DNA from: Desulfitobacteriaceae bacterium
Lineage (GTDB): Bacteria; Bacillota; Desulfitobacteriia; Desulfitobacteriales; Desulfitobacteriaceae
DNA: 39,454 nucleotides
Assembly (NCBI GenBank): GCA_028704155.1
Contig: JAQVLN010000008.1
Location: 1 to 39,454, forward strand
Direction: 5' to 3'
Shown piece by piece: positions 38,150 to 39,454 of the stretch (its first letter is position 1; every line of letters begins with the position of its first letter). The position numbers were made by a program, and so were the translations under genes. The notes under the pieces were generated by a model that saw only the letters and a list, made by a program, of their open reading frames with translations, had not been told where the DNA came from and did no database searches.

Positions 38150-38360
38150 AGGTTTATTCACTATTTGCCTATTTTCCCTCATAAATCAAGCGCCAATGCA
38201 TATAATGCATAAATGAAAAATAAAGCTTTGGAGAAATCATGGCCAGACTTGAAAAGACAATTGAGAATCTGCACTTCAGGCTGGAGTTTATTTCACTAAC
38301 TTGAGCAGTTGCCCCTTTTTTCATTTTTAGAATAAAAATCATATAAAATATTCCAGGATT
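38150..38360. other. Intergenic stretch with one possible short ORF
   Basis: This AT-rich stretch contains no convincing gene. A 21-codon plus-strand frame (38239-38304) has an SD-like GGAG and encodes MARLEKTIENLHFRLEFISL, vaguely like the first helix of Spo0E-type phosphatases but far too short. An ATGCAT-ATA-ATGCAT dyad lies near 38197-38211. Confidence 0.3.
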
Positions 38361-38364
38361 ATCG

Positions 38365-38393
38365 TTGACTTTCGACAAATTATATCTTATATT
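38365..38393 (+). promoter_or_regulatory. Sigma-A promoter for the sipW-type operon
   Basis: TTGACT (38365-38370), 17-bp spacer, TATATT (38388-38393). The predicted start near 38400 gives a leader of about 220 nt before the signal peptidase gene. Confidence 0.65.
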
Positions 38394-38498
38394 GTGATTA
38401 TGCGAGATAAAATATTCCATTAGAAGAAATATTTCGACAATTTTCTTTAAGATGTATTCGTTATTGTATACCTACTGCAGCACACGGAAAGCTCTGAT

Positions 38499-38584
38499 CT
38501 GTGAGTGTGAAAATTGGGCGTCTGACTCACAGCAGCGAGTGACGCAACCGGCCGTATATTCAGCAAGATATGTTGGCCTTTTTT
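38499..38584 (+). promoter_or_regulatory. Attenuator-like leader of the signal peptidase gene
   Basis: Two hairpins share bases 38525-38528 and exclude each other: CTGTGAGT/ACTCACAG (38499-38532) and GCGTC..ACTC/GAGT-GACGC (38518-38545). A third, GGCC..TATAT/ATAT..GGCC (38550-38578), is followed by six T residues, forming an intrinsic terminator 35 bp before the start codon. This is the layout of a riboswitch or protein-controlled attenuator. I could not match a known aptamer. Confidence 0.5.
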
Positions 38585-38618
38585 GATTTCTATAATTCAA
38601 AAATTGGAGGAATTACAT

Positions 38619-39287
38619 ATGAAAAACCAGCCTCACGAAAGAACAATTTTTAGAAAAGTCTTCAAAAAGGCTTTAAATATCAGCGGTATTCTGGTCTGTA
38701 TCTTGCTTACCTTTATTATCATAGTCAACGGAACCATGATTGTGAAGTCTTACATTTACCCGGATAAGGTGCCGGACTTCCTGGGTTATAAGCCATTTAT
38801 CGTTTTGTCGGGCTCCATGGAGCCGACCATCTTGACCGGAGATCTGGTTTTGACCAGGGAAATAGCCGCCGAGACGATTACCAAGGATGATATCATCACT
38901 TTCAGTACCGACAAGAATACCGTAGTTACCCATAGAGTTACCGAGGTCGTGAATCAAGATGGTGCTCTCTCCTTTCTGACTAAGGGAGATGCCAATATCG
39001 GTTCCGATGCCAGTGTCGTAAAACCGGAGAATCTGGAGGGCAAATATCTGGGGCGGGTCGGTGGTCTGGGACGGTTTGCCATGTTCCTGCAGACCCCCAT
39101 CGGGATGCTGATCTTTGTAGTCACCCCGCTGTGTTTGTTCATTGTTTACGATCTCCTGGGTCGCAAACGGCGCAGTAAGCAAAAAGGGAATCGGGAAGCT
39201 GAACTGGAAGCCGAGCTGGCAGCTCTCAAAGCAGCCCAAAAGGAAAATTCCGAGCCGGAGGCCAAGGGCGAAAATTTCCCGAGCTGA
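38619..39287 (+). CDS. sipW: SipW-type (ER/archaeal-type) signal peptidase I
   Basis: A 222-residue membrane protease. TM1 is at about 21-40; the catalytic Ser66 lies in VLSGSMEPT and the general base His105 in VVTHRVTEV, where other bacterial SPases use Lys; this Ser-His pair defines the SipW type. TM2 is near 168-190, followed by a long basic then Glu/Ala-rich tail. SipW enzymes process TasA/camelysin-like matrix proteins, whose genes usually follow. GGAGG lies 8 bases before ATG 38619; an upstream in-frame ATG is rejected. The window ends just before the next gene. Confidence 0.9.
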   Translation: MKNQPHERTIFRKVFKKALNISGILVCILLTFIIIVNGTMIVKSYIYPDKVPDFLGYKPFIVLSGSMEPTILTGDLVLTREIAAETITKDDIITFSTDKNTVVTHRVTEVVNQDGALSFLTKGDANIGSDASVVKPENLEGKYLGRVGGLGRFAMFLQTPIGMLIFVVTPLCLFIVYDLLGRKRRSKQKGNREAELEAELAALKAAQKENSEPEAKGENFPS

Positions 39288-39419: not shown

Positions 39420-39433
39420 CTGATAAAAATTAA

Positions 39434-39442
39434 GGGAGGTGA
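39434..39442 (+). promoter_or_regulatory. Shine-Dalgarno of a gene starting beyond the window
   Basis: GGGAGGTGA is followed by AAGGGCCACAAA at the window edge, so a start codon probably lies immediately outside. By context the gene is likely a TasA/camelysin-like secreted protein. Confidence 0.6.
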
Positions 39443-39454
39443 AAGGGCCACAAA

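Follow-up and report, generated by a model that had tools for sequence, protein, structure and literature searches.

The 3' end of the window (by which we mean the whole stretch of 39,454 nucleotides that was analysed) comprises a leader and one gene, both on the + strand (Table 1). The leader runs for about 220 nt, from a promoter-like site to the ATG at 38619 (+), and its extent agrees with the one given in an initial annotation of this DNA, as does the G+C stem with six T residues which that annotation had noticed ahead of the Shine-Dalgarno sequence.

Table 1. Features of the leader and its gene, and the GGDEF-type protein discussed in the text
Feature	Position	Strand	Detail
Promoter-like site TTGACT-17-TATATT	38365-38393	+	10/12 consensus matches
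c-di-GMP-II-type aptamer	38478-38561	+	RF01786 match, 84 nt
P1 5' strand	38480-38487	+	pairs imperfectly with 38552-38559; mismatches marked in the model alignment
P3 stem-loop	38499-38532	+	38499-38506 with 38525-38532, 8 perfect pairs
Pseudoknot 5' strand GCGTC	38518-38522	+	pairs with 38541-38545
Pseudoknot 3' strand GACGC	38541-38545	+	conserved AACCGG core directly after
Intrinsic terminator	38550-38584	+	stem 38550-38578, six T 38579-38584
Shine-Dalgarno GGAGG	38606-38610	+	sequence
SipW-like (ER/archaeal-type) signal peptidase, 222 aa	38619-39287	+	TIGR02228 match
ODP-GGDEF-receiver protein	L098 (G000 contig C131) 501-2558		degenerate GGDEF site

The transcript start is predicted near 38400. 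The scanned region yields nine promoter-like sites, against 3.9 expected by chance, so that the site at 38365-38393 is weak evidence when taken alone; its counterpart in Desulfosporosinus sp. Tol-M, TTGACT-17-TATAGT, has a distance to the aptamer of -103, compared to -113 in the window. The listed + strand promoter-like sites near the gene are all predicted upstream of the aptamer, and a start downstream of the terminator, which the initial annotation had considered, has no counterpart among them. In the window, the promoter-like site lies between two exact ATAAAATATTCCA boxes (38343-38355 and 38407-38419) at a distance of 64 bases; in Tol-M, the same box follows the promoter and a related box precedes it. 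Such boxes could serve as an operator at which another regulator acts.

The gene encodes a signal peptidase that matches TIGR02228 with 101.1 bits (cut-off 51.85). Its score against NF046067, the equivalog model of Bacillus SipW, is 111.6 bits, below the cut-off of 190, and hence we call it SipW-like and do not file it as an ortholog of Bacillus SipW. The nearest solved relatives of the peptidase are SEC11 subunits, and the catalytic pair, formed by the serine of SGSMEP and the histidine of THR, is invariant in 6/6 aligned peptidases. Thus, the SipW-type peptidase of the initial annotation stands, whereas its biofilm-matrix-type operon is no more than a candidate: the window contig ends at 39454, 167 bases after the gene, and searches of the window's genome gave neither a Peptidase_M73 or TasA/camelysin match (PF12389, E <= 1) nor SipW-cognate signal peptides (TIGR04088, E <= 10). 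A search with the last 155 bases for an overlapping contig yielded none, the best other match being 21 bases long (E = 0.3). Both at 39425-39454 of the window and after position 10642 of L087, a GGGAGGTGA...GGGCC motif follows sipW, and then the contig ends; the motif is perhaps the Shine-Dalgarno sequence of the next gene of the operon.

An Rfam search, the check proposed in the initial annotation, returned zero matches in the window at gathering scores, and a full-length match to RF01786 at relaxed settings: positions 38478-38561 (+) align to model positions 1-84 of 84 with 35.2 bits and an E-value of 4.4e-6. The gathering score of RF01786 (53.5) is a curation line and not a property of the RNA; since 35.2 bits is below it, the element is missed by a default Rfam scan. 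The statement that the leader has no match to the c-di-GMP consensus was therefore wrong in the case of class II, the element having the appearance of a diverged c-di-GMP-II aptamer. In the whole genome, the same segment (E = 6.8e-6) is the sole RF01786 match, with no second copy at E <= 10, while the control genomes yielded RF01786 in 0/14 cases at E <= 0.001 and in 10/14 at E <= 10. In the window, RF01786 also scored higher than the single competing match from its clan. The T-box, SAM, TPP and similar leader classes gave no match in the relaxed Rfam scan.

We then compared the window aptamer with others in an alignment of 51 sequences, comprising the four aptamers before sipW, 26 of the 27 from a genome of the window's genus (G001; one of the two in its locus L043 was excluded) and 21 others. 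The core nucleotides UGA, the A before the 3' strand of P2, and GCAACCG are kept in the window row, as are the columns that are nearly invariant across the 51 aptamers, and the four aptamers from sipW leaders share an unchanged GACGCAACCGG core. The element looks like a diverged member of the c-di-GMP-II riboswitch class, with c-di-GMP as its probable ligand; the assignment is based on the testable structural features, which are present, and the element falls short only of the Rfam curation cut-off.

The pseudoknot, in which the P3 loop pairs with the strand ahead of AACC, does not enter the score of the covariance model and is hence an independent test of the assignment. In the window, all five pairs form between its two strands. 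The same is true for 50 of the 51 aptamers, the remaining one (Tol-M) having four pairs of five, and the strands occur in 14 distinct pairs with compensatory changes on both sides. With one representative per strand pair, 69/70 pairs form. When the 3' halves were permuted, 53.3 pairs formed on average and 66 at most, and 0/1000 permutations attained 69/70; the pseudoknots were counted over all 51 rows with the best anchor chosen per row, and the permuted control was given the same freedom. The initial annotation had held that a lack of conserved pairing in homologous leaders would speak against its proposal; the pairing is conserved.

A search for the peptidase in the family produced a match in 19/45 genomes, the window's own included. 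By far the closest protein (86-87% identical) is that of Tol-M (G064), where an aptamer precedes the start of the peptidase by about 54 bases and the DNA spanning aptamer and gene is 84% identical to that of the window. The Tol-M aptamer, which is mismatched in P3 and at one pseudoknot pair, scores 23.7 bits (E = 0.016 in its own genome); given this E-value and the matches at E <= 1 in 3/14 control genomes, the Tol-M copy alone is a weak match. An orthologous peptidase with 75% identity was found in a metagenome-assembled genome (MAG), Syntrophomonadaceae bacterium STCSWMC_231, and its leader contains two tandem class II aptamers (39.6 and 47.5 bits), each with its own terminator, and no further copy was found in that genome. 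The covariance match (E = 4.4e-6 in the window, 6.8e-6 in the genome) and the recurrence in two other lineages place the leader above chance. In the window, Tol-M and the MAG alike, no more than about 170 bases separate the end of the peptidase gene from that of the contig, which may reflect repetitive sequence downstream.

In three further genomes the peptidases are only about 30% identical to that of the window. In one of them (G028), a related aptamer (28.8 bits) is followed by genes for a histidine kinase, two response regulators and a SipW-like peptidase and by TasA/camelysin-like genes, with PF12389 in 2/4 downstream proteins scanned. In the second (G035), a similar aptamer precedes a kinase and regulators, approximately 20 kb from a sipW cluster, and in the third (G007), RF01786 did not match at the kinase-regulator-sipW cluster. 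Thus, the association between the aptamer and sipW recurs, but it is not universal.

The terminator stem folds at -9.4 kcal/mol; this bulged stem was not listed by a simple terminator scan. Its 5' strand shares 38552-38561 with the aptamer core and the 3' strand of P1. In 4/4 aptamers from sipW leaders, the 3' strand of P1 is where the terminator stem starts, and in the Syntrophomonadaceae MAG the overlap is kept although the sequence of the P1 3' strand differs. As P1 and the terminator share 38552-38561, helix P1, and with it ligand binding, and termination are mutually exclusive, and this exclusion predicts an ON switch.

The proposed regulation would proceed as follows. RNA polymerase would start near 38400. 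If the ligand is absent, 38550-38578 would fold as a terminator, and transcription would stop at about 38584. Conversely, the bound ligand, most likely c-di-GMP, would hold P1 and the pseudoknot 38518-38522/38541-38545 in place, so that 38552-38561 would be unavailable to the terminator, and the resulting antitermination would allow transcription of the sipW-like gene and anything after it. According to PMC6366702 and PMC3649979, the class II c-di-GMP riboswitches of C. difficile are ON switches, and the one of pilA1 is described as controlling a terminator. We consider it probable that the leader is a c-di-GMP-II-type riboswitch that acts by transcription antitermination as an ON switch; the initial reading as a ligand-controlled terminator thus gains support from a c-di-GMP-II-type aptamer and a terminator predicted to overlap its P1. 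The aptamer match, the pseudoknot covariation, the overlap of P1 with the terminator and the occurrence of the arrangement ahead of one and the same gene in three lineages were computed; the identity of the ligand, the ON direction, the transcript start and a role in the export of surface or matrix proteins are inferred.

In folding energy, the leader does not surpass shuffled sequences (z = -0.46 for 226 nt and +0.63 for 121 nt), and hence we did not use this energy as evidence. For the isolated aptamer, RNAfold gives another fold at -20.0 kcal/mol, compared to -10.3 kcal/mol for P1, P2 and P3 without the pseudoknot. When the pseudoknot is ignored, the program favours a hairpin of 38518-38528 with 38537-38545, which in the folds excludes P3 (38499-38506/38525-38532). 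The mutually exclusive hairpins described in the initial annotation do exist in this form; judged by eye, the hairpin that competes with P3 is not kept in relatives.

Another question is the supply of the ligand. The window's genome, rated 100% complete, has one GGDEF match (E <= 0.001), an ODP-GGDEF-receiver protein with LEGPVF where GG[DE]EF is expected, and a GGDEF profile search together with reading of the motif found no intact diguanylate cyclase in it. The open frame adjoining the gene of this protein in L098 is, by eye, HEAT-repeat/glycosyltransferase-like. Intact GGDEF motifs were observed in 2/2 proteins of Tol-M and in the one protein inspected in each of G001 (of 6) and the MAG (of 7). 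There are three possible variants: an intact enzyme may be missing from the assembly or divergent, the switch may be decaying, or the aptamer may respond to another ligand.

If the riboswitch were decaying, it would bind poorly, and the leader would act mainly as a fixed attenuator. The low score of 35.2 bits, the mismatches of the Tol-M copy and the failure to find an intact GGDEF enzyme in the window's genome would fit this variant, but the window pseudoknot is perfect, P3 consists of eight perfect pairs, the four sipW aptamers do not differ in their GACGCAACCGG core, and the overlap of the terminator with P1 is kept despite sequence changes, and we regard decay as unlikely. Still less likely is a class-II-like aptamer for another ligand, such as a different cyclic dinucleotide. 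An intact diguanylate cyclase was not found in the window's genome, and Rfam lists variant c-di-GMP-II families (PMC12452182); on the other hand, RF01786 outscored the one competing clan match, the near-invariant core columns of the 51 aptamers are kept, and intact GGDEF motifs do occur in Tol-M and the MAG, which share this leader. We give similarly little credence to the variant where the class II fold would have moved to another signal in the window's organism with the terminator logic kept. If that were true, a switch of changed specificity would gate the SipW-type peptidase, and hence an entire group of surface proteins would have its export controlled via the processing enzyme rather than via the structural genes. 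Finally, a chance likeness of an ordinary terminator or a protein-controlled attenuator to the aptamer, with which the presence of a terminator and the unexceptional folding energy would agree, is highly improbable given the genome-wide E-value of 6.8e-6 with no second match at E <= 10, the covarying pseudoknot and the tandem aptamer copies before the orthologous gene in the MAG. The points against the preferred reading, a c-di-GMP-II-type ON switch, are the score of 35.2 bits versus the gathering score of 53.5 bits, the mismatches in P1, the other fold that RNAfold prefers, the unexceptional folding energy of the leader, the weak Tol-M copy and the GGDEF protein of the window's genome with its degenerate motif.

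The leader is similar to the C. difficile elements Cdi2_4 (pilA1/CD3513) and Cdi2_3 (CD2831), having the same P1, P2, P3 and pseudoknot, the same position in the 5' leader, an overlap with the terminator, an expected ON switch and a target gene for surface or exported proteins. It differs from them in that the window aptamer is below the threshold (35.2 versus 53.5 bits) and in that the target is a processing enzyme (SipW-like) and not a pilin or adhesin itself. In STCSWMC_231, sipW is preceded by two successive units, each a complete aptamer with its terminator; they resemble tandem c-di-GMP-II riboswitches, of which a survey (PMC9481103) describes 59 doublets and 9 triplets, mostly before the gene of a COG4932 surface anchor in Paraclostridium and its relatives; unlike these, the gene here is sipW, and the window has a single copy. 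Neither the riboswitch class nor its ON logic nor the tandem arrangement of class II switches is new (PMC9481103). Apparently new is sipW as a c-di-GMP-II target. In the literature searched (mostly papers available without subscription), no c-di-GMP riboswitch linked to sipW was recognised.

The sipW-tasA/camelysin and sipW-bsaA operons are controlled by protein regulators. As in these operons, of Bacillus and of C. perfringens (PMC7395162), respectively, the peptidase of the window is of the SipW type and a dedicated secreted substrate is expected, but no TasA-like gene is seen in the window, whose contig ends after sipW. If the riboswitch reading is true, c-di-GMP would directly control, via RNA, the peptidase that would mature SipW-class substrates in Desulfosporosinus-like and Syntrophomonadaceae bacteria, and a messenger of the sessile lifestyle would be linked to protein export at the processing step. 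As diverged class II switches (35 bits here, 24 in Tol-M) score far under the Rfam cut-off and are missed by default scans, counts of c-di-GMP regulons in these groups may be too low.

Matches to the c-di-GMP-II model were also counted in other genomes with 11 candidates scored per genome, so that the counts are lower bounds: at least 20 of the 61 relatives have a match, and the highest count among 398 genomes of the phylum is at least five. The 2.3-Mb genome G001 has 27 matches at E <= 0.001 (L014, L024 and L026-L046). The downstream genes in G001 include those for CWB2, Big and fn3 surface proteins, a subtilase, ferredoxins, desulfoferrodoxin, rubrerythrin and CDGSH proteins, and metK, and the genes after the 27 leaders mostly differ. 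The aptamers are alike in 321/351 pairs of these leaders, and the upstream promoter-like stretch of about 65 bp in 42/351. This looks like a promoter-plus-riboswitch cassette copied ahead of unrelated genes. A terminator ACCGACC...GGTCGGTTTT is common to 17 of the 27 leaders, and in seven of the 27 an extended Shine-Dalgarno sequence (e.g., AGGAGGTGA) stands right after the terminator. Could it belong to a leader peptide, or be an mRNA-stabilising Shine-Dalgarno sequence? Examples are found at about 258 in L026, 2732 in L034 and 3043 in L041, and several of these sequences lie well before the likely start codon.
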